5,770 nt of DNA from positions 1-5,770 of the forward strand of contig CACZQE010000015.1 in assembly GCA_902783205.1 (NCBI GenBank). Direction: 5' to 3'. The translations under genes and the position numbers were made by a program. Below the pieces are notes generated by a model, which was given only the letters and a program-made list of their open reading frames with translations, was not told the origin of the DNA and ran no database searches. Numbering within the stretch: the stretch's first letter is position 1; each line of letters starts with the position of its first letter. Of the stretch, positions 1 through 5,111 are shown piece by piece. Source of the stretch: an uncultured Lachnospiraceae bacterium (GTDB taxonomy: Bacteria > Bacillota_A > Clostridia > Lachnospirales > Lachnospiraceae).

Positions 1-408
1 CAGGCTCAGAATCCCGTTCCTGCCATCCCGGATGTCCTGTGCGTAGCAGTTGCCCCACAGGAGCAGGTGTGTCATCATGACCTCCCTGAAAGAGAAACTC
101 GTCATCTCCTGGTTCGGCTACCTGTACAGGATCCTGTATATAGGGTGGTCTTTTGCCTTCTCTTTTCCCTTCTCCTCTGCATCGGTGAACCTGTAAAGAT
201 GTAGCGGAAGTCCCGCCACGGTCTCTGCCAGGAGCCGCACGCATGCATAGACCGTGGCGATCTGCATGGTGCTTTTCTCATCGACACGTTCCCCGGAATC
301 CGCCTTTCCGAACACGAAAGTCTGCCCGGAGTCCCGGACGTTATCAGTGATCTCCGGAAGTCCGGGTTCATCTCTCGGGCTGATACCCAGCCAGTCAAGA
401 ATTCCCAT
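1..408 (-). pseudogene. Phage portal protein (HK97 type), N-terminal part with in-frame TAG
   Basis: The portal forms the dodecameric ring at the capsid vertex through which DNA enters and leaves, and docks the terminase. The start is ATG at 406-408, with GGAGG at 416-420 six bases upstream. The product begins MGILDWLGISPRDEPG. It continues with a segment typical of HK97-family portals (about residues 53-76): STMQIATVYACVRLLAETVA, then GLPL. After residue 96 (ILYR) the frame meets TAG at 118-120, then stays open for 39 more codons to the window edge. These read PNQEMTSFSFREV, then THLLLWGNCYAQDIRDGRNG, which is clearly portal sequence. Homologues as I remember them have Gln at the TAG position (LYRQPN), so a CAG-to-TAG change is the simple explanation. 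The 3' end lies outside the window. The gene normally follows the terminase directly, but here a cargo gene separates them. The family is secure, and loss of function is very likely unless the host suppresses amber codons. Confidence 0.87.
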
Positions 409-470
409 TGTTTTCCCTCCATAACAAAAGAGGCCGCCCATTAGAGCAAGCCCCTCTGCATTATTCATGT

Positions 471-491
471 ATTATCTATAATCTATTATCT
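471..491. repeat. Three tandem AT-rich heptamers
   Basis: On the plus strand the heptamers ATTATCT, ATAATCT and ATTATCT follow one another, differing at two positions in the middle copy. They cover the TAA stop (486-488) of the membrane-anchored cargo gene and the start of the gap before the portal gene. They may be simple low-complexity DNA at the edge of the insertion. No function is implied. Confidence 0.4.
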
Positions 492-1439
492 AATATAATC
501 TTCATAGAAACCTGTCTGTAGATGGATCGATTCCGGTTTTCTTTCTTTTGATTCCCCTGAGATCACATACTGATAATAAGCGGTCCACGGGATAGTCTCA
601 GGTTCAGCAAACGGTTTTCCCTGCATATCCGTATATTGTATGGTTATTTCAAGATCTGGGATGTTTGCTTTAAGGTCTCCAGCTCCATCGGGATCCGTCC
701 TGATCAAGTTTTCCCAGCATTCCCTGCCGTATATAATTGCAAGCATCTTAACCCATCCCTGTGGAAGCGCCACATTAACTGAAGAGTCATCTGAAGCAAT
801 ATACGTGTATTTCTTTATCACGTCTTCATCGGTATATAAATACGTACTCTTGGATTCATCAGAATCAGAATAATTAAGCAGATACATCTGCCGACCATCT
901 CTTCCTTTCACTGTTTTTATTTCGTAATGATAGTCGTCAATTATACTATCCAGTGCAGTCGCTGCGTTCTCCAGCCACTCTGTGGAAAAGGATACCTGAA
1001 CATCCTTTGCCGTTCCATGTCCTATGTTTTTTAAAGTCAGATAAGGTATTTCAAGAAACAGATAATCGGCGTCATCTGAGGGTTTCTCTGAATAACAGCT
1101 GCCTGGATCGGATGTATTATAGTTTATATAGATGTGCCTTTTGTTTGTTTTTGGACCTTCTTCATCTAATCGTCCTCCTTCAAATGCATTTGGGCTGATC
1201 ACGATCTCAGGCTTGTAAGCATTATCTCGTTCTGTCTGCATTTCGCGTAATGTTCCATATGCCAAAAGAGCAGCCATAACGGTGGCTATCGCCCCTAAAG
1301 CCTGAATAATATCAAAAAAAATCTGAAGTTTGTTGGTTTTCTTTTCCTCTGCATTTGTTGAGGAATTTGAACCCTGTGTAGTTTTATTATCCGATATCTG
1401 CACCTGGTTTTTGACTTGTTCTGTTTCTTTTCTGGCCAT
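486..1439 (-). CDS. Single-pass membrane-anchored protein of unknown function, cargo gene between terminase and portal
   Basis: I do not recognise a named family. The 317-residue product has a polar N-terminal tail rich in Lys, Gln, Asn and Ser (residues 1-37). One hydrophobic segment follows at about 39-64 (FFDIIQALGAIATVMAALLA inside it). The remaining region of about 250 residues is soluble, acidic and Tyr/Asp-rich, and its alternating pattern suggests mostly beta structure, including a stretch ILEPYLTLKNIGHGTAKDV-like in character (LTLKNIGHGTAKDVQVSF). There is no signal-peptide cleavage site, no lipobox and no visible catalytic motif. I chose ATG at 1437-1439: a GAGGAGG lies 11 bases upstream, whereas the GTG at 1449-1451 abuts that site with no spacing. 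It sits between terminase and portal, which are normally adjacent, has its own promoter (1496-1525), and is visibly more AT-rich than its neighbours. These are marks of a moron. It is intact while both flanking phage genes are broken. A role in defence or exclusion is possible but unsupported. Confidence 0.8.
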   Translation of the reverse strand: MARKETEQVKNQVQISDNKTTQGSNSSTNAEEKKTNKLQIFFDIIQALGAIATVMAALLAYGTLREMQTERDNAYKPEIVISPNAFEGGRLDEEGPKTNKRHIYINYNTSDPGSCYSEKPSDDADYLFLEIPYLTLKNIGHGTAKDVQVSFSTEWLENAATALDSIIDDYHYEIKTVKGRDGRQMYLLNYSDSDESKSTYLYTDEDVIKKYTYIASDDSSVNVALPQGWVKMLAIIYGRECWENLIRTDPDGAGDLKANIPDLEITIQYTDMQGKPFAEPETIPWTAYYQYVISGESKERKPESIHLQTGFYEDYIR

Positions 1440-1495
1440 TTCCGTCCCCACCTCCTCAAAGCATGGTCTAATGCATCATTCAAGCAACTGTAACC

Positions 1496-1527: not shown

Positions 1528-2486
1528 TTAAAAAAACAGCAGTCCCCTAGTGTCATAAACGCTCTCAGATATATCATTCCCACACCGGATCGCCCGGTCC
1601 AGCCCCATGATCATGGCAATGGCGCCATCAATCCTCTCAGTGCTCTTTGACTTGTCTGCCTTGATATTGCCGGCCGGATCTGTCCGGATATAGATGTTAT
1701 CCATCATCCATCTCAGGACCGGGTGCCCGCCGTGGGCGATCTTCCCCTCGAGCACCAGCTTCATCAGTTCTTTGGTGGGAGGGGACATTGCAGAAACCCT
1801 CTGTCCGAAGGGGACTACCGTGAACCCCATGCCTTCCAGGTTCTGCACCATCTGCACCGCTCCCCATCTGTCGAACGCGATTTCCCTGATGTTGTAATGC
1901 TCTCCAAGGCGTTCTATGAATTTCTCTATGTAACCGTAATGGATGACGTTCCCTGCCGTTCCCAGAGGTCATAGGGTACGTGGTCACGCCTTACGCGCAG
2001 GTCGACCGTATCCTCAGGGATCCAGAAATACGGCAGCACTATATATTTTTCATCCTCGTCCCTGGGAGGGAAGACTAGGACGAATGCCGTGACATCAGTC
2101 GTCGATGAGAGGTCAAGGCCGCCATAGCAGACACGTCCTTCCAGTTCCTCCGTATTGACCCTGAAAGCACATGAATCCCATTTCTCCATCGGCATCCAGC
2201 GCATTGCCTGTTTCACCCACTGGTTCAGCCTCAGCTGCCGGAAGCTGTTCTCTTCAGCCGAGTTCTGTCTGGCTGATTCACAGGCAGCTTTGACTTTGTC
2301 GATGCCGACCGTGATGCCCAGTGAAGGGTTTGCCTTCTTCCACACCTTCGGATCCGTCCAGTCATCTGACTCATCCGCCCCATAGATTACAGGGTAAAAT
2401 GTGGGATCGAACTTCCTCCCCTCCACAATGTCCACGGCCTTCTGATGCGTTTCATAACAGATGCTGTTCGTATCAAACCCTGTTAT
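1528..2486 (-). pseudogene. terL: Phage terminase large subunit, nuclease half only, frameshifted
   Basis: The large terminase is the packaging motor: an N-terminal ATPase and a C-terminal RNase H-like nuclease that cuts concatemeric DNA. Recognisable terminase sequence begins at about 2474-2486 with GFDTNSICYETHQKAVDIVEG. It continues through WTDPKVWKKANPSLG, FRQLRLNQWVKQAMRWMP and the first nuclease motif CYGGLDLSSTTDVTAF, whose Asp lies near 2112-2114. The frame reaches WERQG and then shifts near 1950-1955. The other frame resumes at NVIHYGYIEKFIERLG and runs through IAFDRWGAVQMVQNLEGMGF, KAHGG-like KIAHGGHPVLRWMMDNIY and the late-motif region KSTERIDGAIA. It stops at TAA 1528-1530 with the family-typical ending SVYDTRGLLFF. 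The ATPase half with Walker A and B is absent. The upstream sequence belongs in frame to the radical SAM gene. A local FGQRVSAMSPP, where I expect FGQGF, suggests a compensated frameshift at about 1785-1805. The family is secure and the protein cannot be functional. Confidence 0.92.
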
Positions 2487-2540
2487 CCTAGACAGGTATT
2501 TTATCTTCTTCTCCAGTGGCAAGTGCCGGTATCCGCTCTA
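2472..2540 (-). other. Deletion junction: radical SAM C-terminal region fused in frame to terminase
   Basis: From the TAG at 2538-2540 the radical SAM frame stays open and encodes SGYRHLPLEKKIKYLSRITG. As I remember the SPL-type phage proteins, this is the normal continuation after the ...YSEYxxK segment. At ITGF (2475-2486) the reading changes without loss of frame into terminase GFDTNSICYE. Both parents have a similar T-G-F or T-A-G-F-D tract here, so a deletion between short similar sequences (around ACAGGGTTTGA) explains the joint. The lost segment would include the last part of the radical SAM gene, the terminase ATPase domain and probably the small terminase. Confidence 0.75.
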
Positions 2541-3209
2541 CTTCACCGCATATTCTGAGTAATCTATCGGGAATGTTCTGCGGATGAAAGCATTACCCCT
2601 AAGAAACTCCACCAGTATCTTGTCGCACCGGATGCCGTTCAATACATCGAAGTCAGCATATTCCGGTATGAACGGAGAAAGGCGGACAGAGACATCCAGA
2701 CCATATGCCTGCAGCTTTTCTATCGCCGCAATACGGTCAGAGGTCCTGCTCGCCTTCTCATACTCCATCGCTTTATCATCTTCCGTTGCCGTGATGGTCA
2801 CCTGGATATGCGCCAGATCCGGGTCATACAAATTGATATATTCGATATCCGCTACCATTGCGGATTTAGTCACAATCAGATACCTGATGCGCCTCTTATT
2901 CAGTTCTTTGATCACCATGTACGTGATACGCCGCTTCCTCTCTGCCGGCTGGAAGCAGTCCGTCATGCCTCCCAGCCTCAGGATGGTTCCGGCAGGTACT
3001 TTATCAAGTTTTCTCCGAATCTTCCATATATCAGCGACCGCCGGATCTTTCGGCCTCCATAATCCCCTGAAATCCAGAAGAGACCTCGCATAACAGTATC
3101 TGCAGTCATGCGCGCATCCGCAGCCGTAGCTGTCCAGCCTTGTCGGATAACGGCATTTCGTTCCCTCGTTGCCTGCGACTGTCTTGTAAAATGACTTGTA
3201 TTCCGCCAT
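2538..3209 (-). CDS. SPL-type radical SAM protein of phage origin, truncated by TAG
   Basis: Radical SAM enzymes bind a [4Fe-4S] cluster through CX3CX2C and cleave S-adenosylmethionine. This clostridial phage subgroup is usually annotated as spore photoproduct lyase-like, but its substrate is unknown to me. The 223-residue product starts MAEYKSFYKTVAGNEG and has the cluster motif at C32-C36-C39 (GCGCAHDCRYCYA). LRLGGMTDCFQP at about 77-88, YLIVTKS at about 109-115 and VSVRLSPFIPEY at about 173-184 follow the expected barrel strands. The chosen ATG (3207-3209) has AAGGGG five bases upstream. Longer in-frame starts would run through a terminator hairpin. It ends at TAG 2538-2540, after YSEYAVK. 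Coding continues in the same frame, so this is a nonsense mutation, probably of a conserved Gln. Relatives, by memory, are about 260-290 residues. The cluster site survives, but the C-terminal part is gone and activity is doubtful. Confidence 0.85.
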   Translation of the reverse strand: MAEYKSFYKTVAGNEGTKCRYPTRLDSYGCGCAHDCRYCYARSLLDFRGLWRPKDPAVADIWKIRRKLDKVPAGTILRLGGMTDCFQPAERKRRITYMVIKELNKRRIRYLIVTKSAMVADIEYINLYDPDLAHIQVTITATEDDKAMEYEKASRTSDRIAAIEKLQAYGLDVSVRLSPFIPEYADFDVLNGIRCDKILVEFLRGNAFIRRTFPIDYSEYAVK

Positions 3210-3235
3210 CCACACCCCTTCTTTACGGACATAGT

Positions 3236-3265
3236 AAAAGCCCCATGAGATCTCTCCCATGAGGC
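3236..3265 (-). terminator. Intrinsic terminator upstream of the radical SAM gene
   Basis: On the minus strand an 11-bp stem (two G-U pairs) closes a GAGA tetraloop at 3240-3265 and is followed by TTTT at 3236-3239. It is strong in the minus direction and lacks a good T-run in the plus direction. It would stop leftward transcription coming from the regulator side or from antisense to the Sel1/HEPN cassette. It also leaves only about 26 bases before the radical SAM start, so that gene would need antitermination or read-through to be expressed. Confidence 0.7.
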
Positions 3266-3402
3266 TTGGTTCATATTGCATTTCGCTGATTTTACTATAT
3301 CAAAATTATGGGGTGGGCATCTTAGGACAAAAGCGGACATTTCGGGCGTATTTTGCAATAGATCAATATAAAGTTTAGTAAAATGTCCTTGCGCTACTGG
3401 TG

Positions 3403-3408
3403 TATAAT
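3403..3408 (+). promoter_or_regulatory. Probable -10 box for the Sel1/HEPN operon
   Basis: A perfect TATAAT, preceded by TG, lies 35 bases before the chosen ATG of the first cassette gene (3443). I see no convincing -35: the window 16-18 bases upstream is A-rich (around 3379-3386). This may mean an activator-dependent or weak promoter. Two GGACA copies one helical turn apart (3325-3329 and 3335-3339) stand farther upstream. Confidence 0.4.
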
Positions 3409-3442
3409 GAACGAAAAGTTCTGTAAAGGAAGTGATAAAGCA

Positions 3443-3946
3443 ATGCAAAGATGGAACTACGATTCGCTTATCCAGGCCGCCGAACAAGGGGATCCTTGCA
3501 AGATGTTAGAAGTTGCAAAGCTCTACAAGGCAGGGGCTTTCGGCGATTCTGATCACAGTGAATACCTTTTCTGGTTAAAACGGTTTTTTGAGTCGCCAAA
3601 AGTCAATGCGATCTTGCTAGAGTTGGAGGATAAATACAGTGGGGGCGATTCACCTTACTCCCCCTATTTTGATATGGAATCCAGCAGTCTTGAAGAATAC
3701 TATGTTCTGTGTGATTCTATCGTTGAGGCCGGTCTCGCATTAGGAATTTATTACAGTAACAGTAGCAAAAAGGAAAACCTTGAGTTATCAAGGGACTCTC
3801 TGGTAGCCGCTTTAGACGCTAGCAGATGGGATTATCTGACCTACGATGACCCTAATGGAGTTGAGGAAAGCATTCTGTCCCTCTTGGGAAAAGTAAATGA
3901 CCGGATCAAAAAACTCGGATATCAGGCAGGTGAAGACAATGAGTGA
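3443..3946 (+). CDS. Sel1/TPR-like helical repeat protein, first gene of a two-gene cassette
   Basis: The 167-residue soluble acidic protein has no signal peptide or membrane segment. Residues 10-50 resemble a Sel1-like repeat: AAEQGDPCKMLEVAKLYKAG is followed by a helix with YLFWLKRFFE. A second degenerate unit lies at about 92-130 (IVEAGLALGIYYSNSS, then SLVAALDASRWDY). Sel1 and TPR-type repeats usually hold or sense a protein partner, and no catalytic motif is visible. ATG 3443-3445 is preferred because AAGGAAGTGAT (3426-3436 region) stands about seven bases upstream. The in-frame ATG at 3383 would put the TATAAT inside the gene and lacks a ribosome site. The stop overlaps the next start by 8 nt, so translation is coupled. 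It runs opposite to the phage genes. By inference it is the sensor, adaptor or antitoxin of the HEPN protein encoded next. Confidence 0.8.
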   Translation: MQRWNYDSLIQAAEQGDPCKMLEVAKLYKAGAFGDSDHSEYLFWLKRFFESPKVNAILLELEDKYSGGDSPYSPYFDMESSSLEEYYVLCDSIVEAGLALGIYYSNSSKKENLELSRDSLVAALDASRWDYLTYDDPNGVEESILSLLGKVNDRIKKLGYQAGEDNE

Positions 3947-4634
3947 TTATCTTGATGAAATAAAAAACGCAAGCCAAACCAGTCTGAAAAAAGCAGTTGG
4001 CGAATCAACATGGGATGCCCTCGACCCATCGATCAAAACAGGCGCATTAACTTCTGAGATATGTCTAAAGACTTTGGAGGGGTTGTCAAATGCGGACTTT
4101 TCCGCCTCCATCATGCCCCTTATGAAAGTACTGGAAAACGAACTGATACGGCACTTCTATGCCCCATATCTTAAATTTGTAGAAGAGAAATATTCGCCGC
4201 AAGAGTATATATCTGCCAACAGACTGAATGAACGCGACAAAAACCCCAATGACTTGCGCAGGAAGATTCTCTACTACAATCGTTATGCCCGCGAATACAG
4301 GTTCTGCAGTTTAAGGGATCATGATGACAAAATAAAGTTTACTATCGGCAATTATCAGTTTACTGTCGGGGCAGAAAACTATTCAAAACAGGAATGTGAT
4401 CCTACAGCCGTGAGGTTTTATAAAGAACGGGTATTTGGTCCGTCAGCTGACGAATCAGCAATCATTAAATGGGTGTGCAACCTGACTGAAGCCCTGGATT
4501 CCCTTGTGCTTCTTCGTAATGACAGTGCTCATGCAGGCATTATCCAGTCTGAGGAAGATGCAAATACCGCAATGGACACGCTTATCAAGGTTGACCAGGT
4601 ATTATTAACGCTTGTGTTTCCCAAATTACCATAA
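3939..4634 (+). CDS. HEPN-motif protein (candidate RNase), second gene of the cassette
   Basis: HEPN domains are helical bundles whose R-x4-6-H motif often forms a metal-independent RNase site in toxins and phage-defence proteins. The 231-residue product has LRNDSAHAG at 192-200, giving R193-N-D-S-A-H198, the canonical R-[polar]-x3-H form, in a helical context (ALDSLVLLRNDSAH). An earlier helix at about 59-75 (MPLMKVLENELIRHFY) carries a Glu (E67) in the place where such proteins keep an acidic residue. A central FTIGNYQFTVG (134-144) precedes the C-terminal bundle. The overall pattern matches uncharacterised HEPN-like proteins I have seen in Firmicutes; I know no specific name. ATG 3939-3941 has AGGCAGGTGA upstream and overlaps the preceding stop by 8 nt. 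TAA is at 4632-4634, followed by a hairpin terminator. It is intact and without disruption, unlike the surrounding phage genes. RNase activity and a role in defence or abortive infection are inference. Confidence 0.83.
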   Translation: MSDYLDEIKNASQTSLKKAVGESTWDALDPSIKTGALTSEICLKTLEGLSNADFSASIMPLMKVLENELIRHFYAPYLKFVEEKYSPQEYISANRLNERDKNPNDLRRKILYYNRYAREYRFCSLRDHDDKIKFTIGNYQFTVGAENYSKQECDPTAVRFYKERVFGPSADESAIIKWVCNLTEALDSLVLLRNDSAHAGIIQSEEDANTAMDTLIKVDQVLLTLVFPKLP

Positions 4635-4648
4635 TAAGCTATATATTC

Positions 4649-4705
4649 AAAAAATCCCCCACCATTGACATGAGAGGTGCTTGCTTTATATCACAATGGG
4701 GTTTT
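4649..4705. terminator. Bidirectional terminator between the HEPN gene and the DUF1492-type gene
   Basis: CCCCCACCATTG (4656-4667) pairs with CAATGGGG (4694-4701) with one bulged base. On the plus strand TTTT follows (4702-4705). On the minus strand a run of six T follows (complement of 4649-4654), making the minus direction stronger. It serves two convergent genes, and its right arm lies inside the last codons of the DUF1492-type gene. Confidence 0.6.
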
Positions 4706-5111
4706 CCGACAGCTTCACATGCAGAAGAGCCGCACCATGCCATCTGCGCAACGTCCAGAAATCAGCATGGAGTTCACTGCCGATCTGCTCCCATGTATAG
4801 TTGTGGACGTATCGGTATTTTAGGGCCATACGTTCATCCGTATCCTCCACGATCGTGATGGCTGCCCGTATCTCTTTTTTCAGGTCTATGAGCAGCTCGA
4901 TTTCAAAGTTGATTTTTCCCTCCAGCTCTGTGATCTTTTCAATGCAACGGACGAATGTGACATCGCCTTTTCTTGACATCTGTACACGCTCCGTCAGTTG
5001 GGGAGAGGAGACAGAAGATGCCATCCCCCTCAATGCCGCCATCTCCTCAAGGTCGCTGTTTATTTTCTGATCCAGGCGGTAAGCCTGACGTAAGTACTCT
5101 TTTGCTGTCAT
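4686..5111 (-). CDS. ArpU/RinA-like phage late regulator (DUF1492 type)
   Basis: This family comprises small phage proteins with an N-terminal helical part and a C-terminal helix-turn-helix resembling sigma region 4; members I know control late (packaging and structural) transcription. The 141-residue product starts MTAKEYLRQAYRLDQKINSD, which is the family signature. A helical, coiled-coil-like region follows (about 60-90: FVRCIEKITELEGKINFEIE). Then come ALKYRYVHNYTWEQIGSELH and a recognition helix DFWTLRRWHGAAL (about 108-128). Its length is normal and it is intact. Start ATG 5109-5111 has GAGGAAG seven bases upstream and overlaps the stop of the preceding gene as ATGA, so it is translationally coupled. 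In related prophages it stands just before the terminase module; here the inverted Sel1/HEPN cassette and two terminators separate it from those genes. The family assignment is good, the target promoter unknown. Confidence 0.85.
   Translation of the reverse strand: MTAKEYLRQAYRLDQKINSDLEEMAALRGMASSVSSPQLTERVQMSRKGDVTFVRCIEKITELEGKINFEIELLIDLKKEIRAAITIVEDTDERMALKYRYVHNYTWEQIGSELHADFWTLRRWHGAALLHVKLSENPIVI

Follow-up and report, generated by a model that had tools for sequence, protein, structure and literature searches.

The analysed window, a stretch of 5,770 nucleotides from an uncultured Lachnospiraceae bacterium, is phage or prophage DNA in which the phage genes occupy the minus strand. 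Compared with phage records, it produced 113 matches, the 20 listed comprising human-gut phages of Oscillospiraceae, Acutalibacteraceae and Ruminococcus or unnamed hosts, together with Streptococcus prophages. Directly behind the gene of an ArpU-like late regulator lies a cassette of two plus-strand genes, ORF1 and ORF2, encoding an acidic protein of Sel1/TPR-like appearance and a HEPN protein, respectively (Table 1). The two intact overlapping genes, their orientation opposite to the phage genes and the R193-N-D-S-A-H198 motif of the second product had all been reported in the original prediction, and each was confirmed from the sequence.

Table 1. Features of the window; coordinates count from its first nucleotide.
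Feature	Position	Strand	Basis or remark
Portal gene start	118–468	-	Frame cut by a stop
321-codon gene, intact	486–1451	-	In the terminase-portal junction
Large terminase pieces	1926–2522 and 1528–1857	-	Match to the terminase of G518
Radical-SAM gene	2538–3236	-	Pfam Radical_SAM 6.1e-11; PHROG 13321, 2.2e-18
Conserved element behind arpU in relatives	3257–3353	-	Other insertion flank; blastn and alignment A7
Whole cassette	~3354–4684		About 1331 nt, directly behind the arpU stop codon; border uncertain by a few bases
TATAAT box, possible -10	3403–3408	+	Read from the sequence; absent from promoter-scan output
ORF1	3443–3946	+	167 aa, acidic Sel1/TPR-like protein; proposed inhibitor or sensor; start set by homologues
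ORF1 end/ORF2 start overlap	3939–3946	+	8 nt, ATGAGTGA
ORF2	3939–4634	+	231 aa, HEPN protein; proposed RNase toxin/effector
HEPN active-site motif R193-N-D-S-A-H198	4515–4532	+	RNxxAH
Weak inverted repeat, claimed terminator	4654–4705	+	Folds at shuffle level
ArpU-like late regulator	4686–5111	-	One insertion flank; PHROG 36, 1.8e-24; 77% to L026

ORF1 had initially been started at 3383. Position 3443 appears more likely, as the relatives P0009 and P0011 start there and P0010 within one codon of it; this start is preceded by AAAGGAAG at 3425–3432. A near-identical copy of ORF1 (P0008), which is predicted from the upstream start, counts against 3443. Chance ORFs were ruled out by shuffling and by homology: in 1000 mononucleotide shuffles of the cassette a 231-aa ORF was never reached and a 167-aa ORF only three times, and relatives of both ORFs exist down to 28–33% identity. 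The GC content of the cassette is 0.43, against 0.48 in the rest of the window. Within it, the two genes are flanked by no more than 89 nt on the upstream and 50 nt on the downstream side.

A promoter and a hairpin terminator had also been proposed to frame the pair. The TATAAT sequence is indeed present, but the promoter scan returned 2 sites against a shuffle mean of 2.9, neither of them at this box. The downstream hairpin did not withstand comparison with shuffles (z -0.06; 92 of 200 shuffles fold as well), and the terminator scan gave no plus-strand site, both terminator-like sites being on the minus strand. The two signals are at chance level and were discarded as evidence.

The borders of the unit are better defined by relatives with an empty site, which replace the earlier limits of 3383–4705. 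In the locus L026, the sequence that starts with the stop codon of arpU matches window positions 3353–3270, whereas arpU of the window ends at 4686; the 1331 nt of the cassette are absent between the gene and this flank. Two further relatives, L033 and L048, carry the same flank directly after arpU, matching the window from 3353 to about 3257–3270. These three loci are non-identical; a fourth, L110, was left out of the count, being the same as L033 across 700 nt. Because the site is empty in relatives, ORF1 and ORF2 behave as a single unit that was either gained here or lost in the other loci. The flanking element itself (window 3257–3353; L026:838–922; L033:2525–2620; L048:1539–1635) contains TGTCC-like repeats about 10–11 nt apart and a -10-like box, and may serve the ArpU-like regulator as late promoter and operator. 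Its alignment (A7) includes five sequences, the fifth of which, L044, lacks part of the repeats.

The protein encoded by ORF2 carries the RNxxAH motif in common with all full-length members of its family (11 of 11, window included), so that the arginine and histidine named in the original prediction are conserved among homologues; P0015 ends before the motif and is therefore outside this set. The motif follows the HEPN form R-x4-6-H with a polar residue after R. The structural model of ORF2 is confident and helical (mean pLDDT 90.1), with R193 in the last turns of a helix spanning residues 172–197 and H198 just after it. This position agrees with the end of helix 3 or the start of the next loop, where a HEPN survey puts the motif (PMC3710099), in a stretch which is the least certain part of the model (pLDDT below 50 at 199–201). 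Residue E66, located in model helix 55–84, is invariant in 11 of 11 rows; HEPN proteins have an acidic helix-2 residue, typically within E-x3-[KR], the exact spacing of which is not seen here.

The condition that would have refuted the original prediction on the fold, a second protein not forming a HEPN bundle, was not borne out: the model is confidently helical and R193 closes a long helix, though structure searches taken alone gave no significant match. VIA-align placed a HEPN-MNT toxin and Csm6 among the better rows, with modest Z and mixed with unrelated helical bundles. Foldseek returned nothing significant in the PDB and BFVD, where a missing family excludes nothing. Among the 11 members, sub-cut-off Pfam matches to three HEPN-type families were found in 5, 4 and 3 proteins. 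PADLOC and NCBIfam scans of ORF1 and ORF2 gave no match, and other hits were weak only (PHROG at 0.016 for ORF2; PADLOC Csx1 at 0.0063 for the relative P0013). Kinship was revealed with the C-terminal domains of helicase-like proteins bearing RNPSAH, to which the ORF2 family aligned with hhalign at 98.6% and 6.5e-16. By its motif, predicted helix layout and this kinship, ORF2 is a HEPN protein. It would cut RNA, probably as a dimer whose cleft is lined by R193 and H198.

The ORF1 protein gave an AlphaFold2 model with mean pLDDT 84, for which VIA-align returned rows of Sel1/TPR type. Its matches among PDB sequences are weak, and all of them are Sel1/TPR proteins. Foldseek found nothing significant for it in the PDB, and Pfam gave neither a family for ORF1 nor a Sel1 family in the five rows of alignment A2. 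The protein has a pI of 4.4.

The pair was met again in the genome G518, the single full-length ORF2 relative among 394 genomes of the order of G002, which carries the locus L117 (Evtepia gabavorous); the match has an E-value of 6.8e-39 with a profile (A4) built without G518. The contig is prophage DNA, and its terminase shares 80% identity with the two pieces in the window. On the strand opposite to that of the phage genes, the terminase-portal junction of this prophage contains an HTH gene and relatives of ORF1 (33% identity, pI 4.1) and ORF2 (28%). The pair has the same order as in the window and overlaps by 11 or 14 nt, depending on the ATG chosen. The insertion places differ, being behind arpU in the window versus the terminase-portal junction in G518. 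With an ORF1 profile (A5), G518 was the only place found in the 394 genomes, a match given by construction, since A5 contained the G518 protein; ORF1 of the window alone finds this relative at 1.2e-17.

The HTH gene of G518 was left out of the proposed system, because it is missing from the window and because five other loci have a relative of it in this junction but no pair. These HTH_3 genes (L011, L049, L051, L057 and L074) are 59–68% identical to that of G518 (L170:7782–8117) and share its orientation opposite to the phage genes; four of the five junctions measure just 452–473 nt.

The refuting condition that the two genes are not neighbours in other genomes was not borne out either, as they adjoin each other in G518. 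We infer two more pairs, P0002/P0009 and P0005/P0010, from longest contigs common to both partners (16815 and 1825 bases, respectively). For seven of the nine full-length ORF2 relatives (P0003, P0004, P0006, P0007, P0012, P0013 and P0014) no ORF1 partner appears in the relative lists, nor does an ORF2 partner for the ORF1 relative P0011, which speaks against an obligate pair. Of 392 genomes of the order of G001, which carries L106 (Lachnoclostridium sp. An169), the ORF2 profile matched five, always near the C-terminus within some longer ORF. The ORF1 profile hit four other genomes of the same set (E 2.6e-4 to 9.1e-4), by eye ordinary Sel1 proteins, with no HEPN motif in the surrounding ORFs within the fetched 3.1–3.4 kb.

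Wider searches were mostly empty. The ORF2 profile found no relative in genome_contigs and viral_contigs, in the 19 genomes holding fetched terminase loci, or in the 19 other genomes of the G518 family, and ORF2 itself found none in phages and one distant match in plasmids. ORF1, P0004, P0002 and both G518 proteins have no relative in viral_contigs. Neither gene was detected in 160 loci fetched by terminase; two collections contributed their best 80 each, taken from longer lists, and contig ends often truncate these loci.

The same loci, together with that of G518, were used to characterize the terminase-portal junction, which could be measured in 153 of 161 (L002–L161 and L170; not dereplicated). 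It is empty (102 nt or less) in 79 of these and spans 173–2243 nt in the remaining 74, including G518. The 73 other filled junctions contain 115 ORFs in 64 clusters, of which nine representatives, picked by eye as resembling toxin-antitoxin or defence genes, were scanned. Eight of the nine have Pfam matches above cut-off: ParE_toxin, RelB, HTH_3 (twice), Fic, RHH_3, Abi_2 and PIN_3. ParE_toxin and RelB each form clusters of eight genes, seven of them on the opposite strand; the Abi_2 gene occupies the junction of L134, and the junction of Javan191 carries Doc/DinJ on the phage strand. The junction used in G518 is a variable slot that also holds toxin-antitoxin and Abi genes in relatives, and is a place to seek further modules in gut Firmicutes phages.

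For the window's own insertion place, besides the three empty relatives, a YafQ/RelB pair is found nearby in L044, on the opposite strand between arpU and terminase. Naive ORF calling with a minimum of 60 aa yielded 149 opposite-strand ORFs here, spread over 64 of 79 intervals. Ten of them were scanned against Pfam; since the YafQ and RelB ORFs of L044 were the sole matches, most of the 149 are probably spurious and the count was not used.

The combination of a HEPN protein with a repeat protein has a precedent, and the view that a Sel1-type gene next to a HEPN gene is without example does not hold. The 2013 survey lists AbiU2 in an operon with a Sel1-repeat protein gene, and the LA2681 HEPN both fused to TPR and in an operon with TPR (Anantharaman et al. 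2013, PMC3710099). With its Sel1-like neighbour ORF2 would resemble the former, and with a TPR-type partner the latter. However, an assignment of ORF2 to AbiU2 was rejected: none of the 11 members matches PF18734, hhalign with an alignment of AbiU2 proteins, a thin one of four sequences, gave 1.5%, and those four have R-x5-H in place of the R-x4-H of ORF2. Around the four AbiU2 genes that exceeded the cut-off (L179–L182), inspection by eye of the fetched 0.7–1.5 kb showed nothing Sel1-like. Pfam also holds an LA2681 family, which is absent from the Pfam matches of the 11 ORF2 members, this comparison being through the Pfam scan only. No published description of the ORF1–ORF2 pair was found among the matches listed in the literature on HEPN proteins with Sel1/TPR partners, AbiU2 and LA2681.

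Other HEPN systems share single traits with the pair. HEPN fusions to SF-II helicases are reported in the same survey (PMC3710099); the RNPSAH domains aligned to ORF2 terminate proteins of restriction-type SF2 helicase and Methylase_S character (L162–L165), and the alignment extends over 190 columns, including the middle FTLG stretch. L163–L165 carry ResIII, and L162 has Methylase_S at its cut-off. These domains were found with the ORF2 profile and have no HEPN family above cut-off; unlike them, ORF2 is a stand-alone, phage-borne protein paired with a Sel1-like gene. A Priestia megaterium plasmid encodes a 693-aa protein (L001:3465–5546) with an ORF2-like domain containing RNKVAH at its end and with no Pfam family above cut-off, near UvrD-helicase, HNH and MutT genes. 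In contrast to HEPN-MNT, the partner of ORF2 is repeat-like and has no nucleotidyltransferase match. With RNase LS (RnlA/LsoA), the ORF2 family shares a sub-cut-off match to the RnlA toxin DBD in 4 of 11 members, but no other RnlA domain is present in their Pfam matches and ORF1 matches no RnlB family. Finally, AbiF/AbiD (Abi_2) and Tha are, like ORF2, prophage-borne HEPN proteins with R-N-x3-H (PMC12373285, PMC11087260). ORF2 has no Abi_2 match, however. AbiF of Clostridioides difficile prophages has the motif RNQCAH, loses its toxicity when altered at R202 and H207, and is under the control of a noncoding RNA (PMC12373285). Tha of Staphylococcus aureus prophages (RNSIMH) is a single protein of 301 aa, as opposed to a pair, is activated by tail proteins (PMC11087260), and is likened to ORF2 by description.

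We propose that the pair is a mobile, type II-like toxin-antitoxin or abortive-infection cassette carried by a prophage, in which ORF2 would be the RNase and ORF1 its restraint, and assign this reading a probability of about 0.55. Its layout is that of type II modules: the genes are co-directional and overlapping, an empty site exists, and G518 has the same order at a different junction. Several type II dyads have their antitoxin gene in the 5′ position (PMC3710099). The genomic company also speaks for this reading: the junction used in G518 has ParE, RelB, Fic, PIN and Abi_2 genes in other loci and Doc/DinJ in Javan191, and L044 has its YafQ/RelB pair between arpU and terminase. ORF1 would be translated first and coupled to ORF2 by the overlap, and would bind and restrain the ORF2 product, as suggested by gene order, overlap, acidity and the likely repeat fold. 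Loss of ORF1, or its occupation by a product of an invading phage, would free ORF2, which could then cut cellular and phage RNA and stop growth, so that an incoming phage is blocked or loss of the prophage penalised. Because the cassette runs opposite to the phage genes, its expression in the lysogen would be allowed. The broader claim of the original prediction, in which an antitoxin or sensor accompanies an RNase effector, is well supported as a reading of sequences and models, from which we infer cleavage, toxicity, binding and a trigger.

A somewhat unlikely alternative is that ORF1 is no classical antitoxin: as a sensor or adaptor, it would recognise a phage component by binding and so activate ORF2, otherwise a latent RNase. 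The Sel1/TPR-like model of ORF1 agrees with this, as such repeats usually bind proteins, and so does the Abi_2 gene in the junction of L134. Activation of Tha by tail proteins offers a parallel (PMC11087260), weakened by the differences named above; gene order and overlap fit an antitoxin equally well, and there is no known trigger. Considerably less probable is a regulatory or RNA-processing pair in the service of the phage, with a non-toxic HEPN protein of the kind proposed for MtlR. The pair is phage-borne, and some HEPN families, MtlR included, have lost the motif and are probably RNA-binding (PMC3710099), but the R...H motif is complete in every full-length ORF2 member, and the genes lie on the opposite strand and in two different insertion places. 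Since neither gene was found in the 160 terminase-fetched loci, the best 80 of each longer list, these phages do not generally need the pair.

We regard as least probable, at a level of slight likelihood, that ORF2 is checked by RNA or needs no partner at all, with ORF1 as an independent cargo gene. The RNA-regulated AbiF with its RNQCAH motif (PMC12373285) and the seven of nine ORF2 relatives for which no ORF1 partner was seen speak for it. Against it stand the short non-genic stretches of the cassette (89 and 50 nt) and the preservation of the pair, with overlap, at about 30% identity in G518. A noncoding-RNA partner was considered and dropped, just two Rfam matches at E ≤ 1 having been obtained, both far below their cut-offs.

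A further, somewhat unlikely reading is that the pair is a previously undescribed mobile immunity cassette in which the Sel1-like protein both holds the HEPN RNase and senses the phage, antitoxin and receptor being one protein, and which moves between cargo places of related gut-Firmicutes prophages. If the toxin-antitoxin or abortive-infection reading is right, an entry of the 2013 table would take concrete shape as a compact system of two genes, for which both an empty site and another, diverged copy are at hand. Repeat proteins would then join the known silencers of HEPN RNases, namely adenylylation by MntA (PMC7641770) and RNA (PMC12373285).

Some of the genes around the cassette are incomplete. 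The original prediction placed the pair between a late regulator and packaging genes, and the ArpU-like gene and terminase do lie on its two sides, but the terminase is broken and the radical-SAM gene intervenes. The terminase pieces correspond to residues 212–394 and 399–541 of the 541 in G518, in two frames, with a frameshift between them and residues 1–211 missing. Broken terminase and portal genes beside intact cargo genes may reflect a decayed prophage, a rearrangement or a sequence error. The interval from arpU to terminase, which houses the radical-SAM gene here, contains several other genes in relatives, and no relative of the radical-SAM gene was found in the 161 loci. The 321-codon gene likewise has none there; it matches no Pfam family above cut-off and nothing in PADLOC or NCBIfam, and its PHROG matches are weak. 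It possibly represents a second cargo gene: it lies in the terminase-portal junction, and the window therefore seems to carry two cargo insertions.
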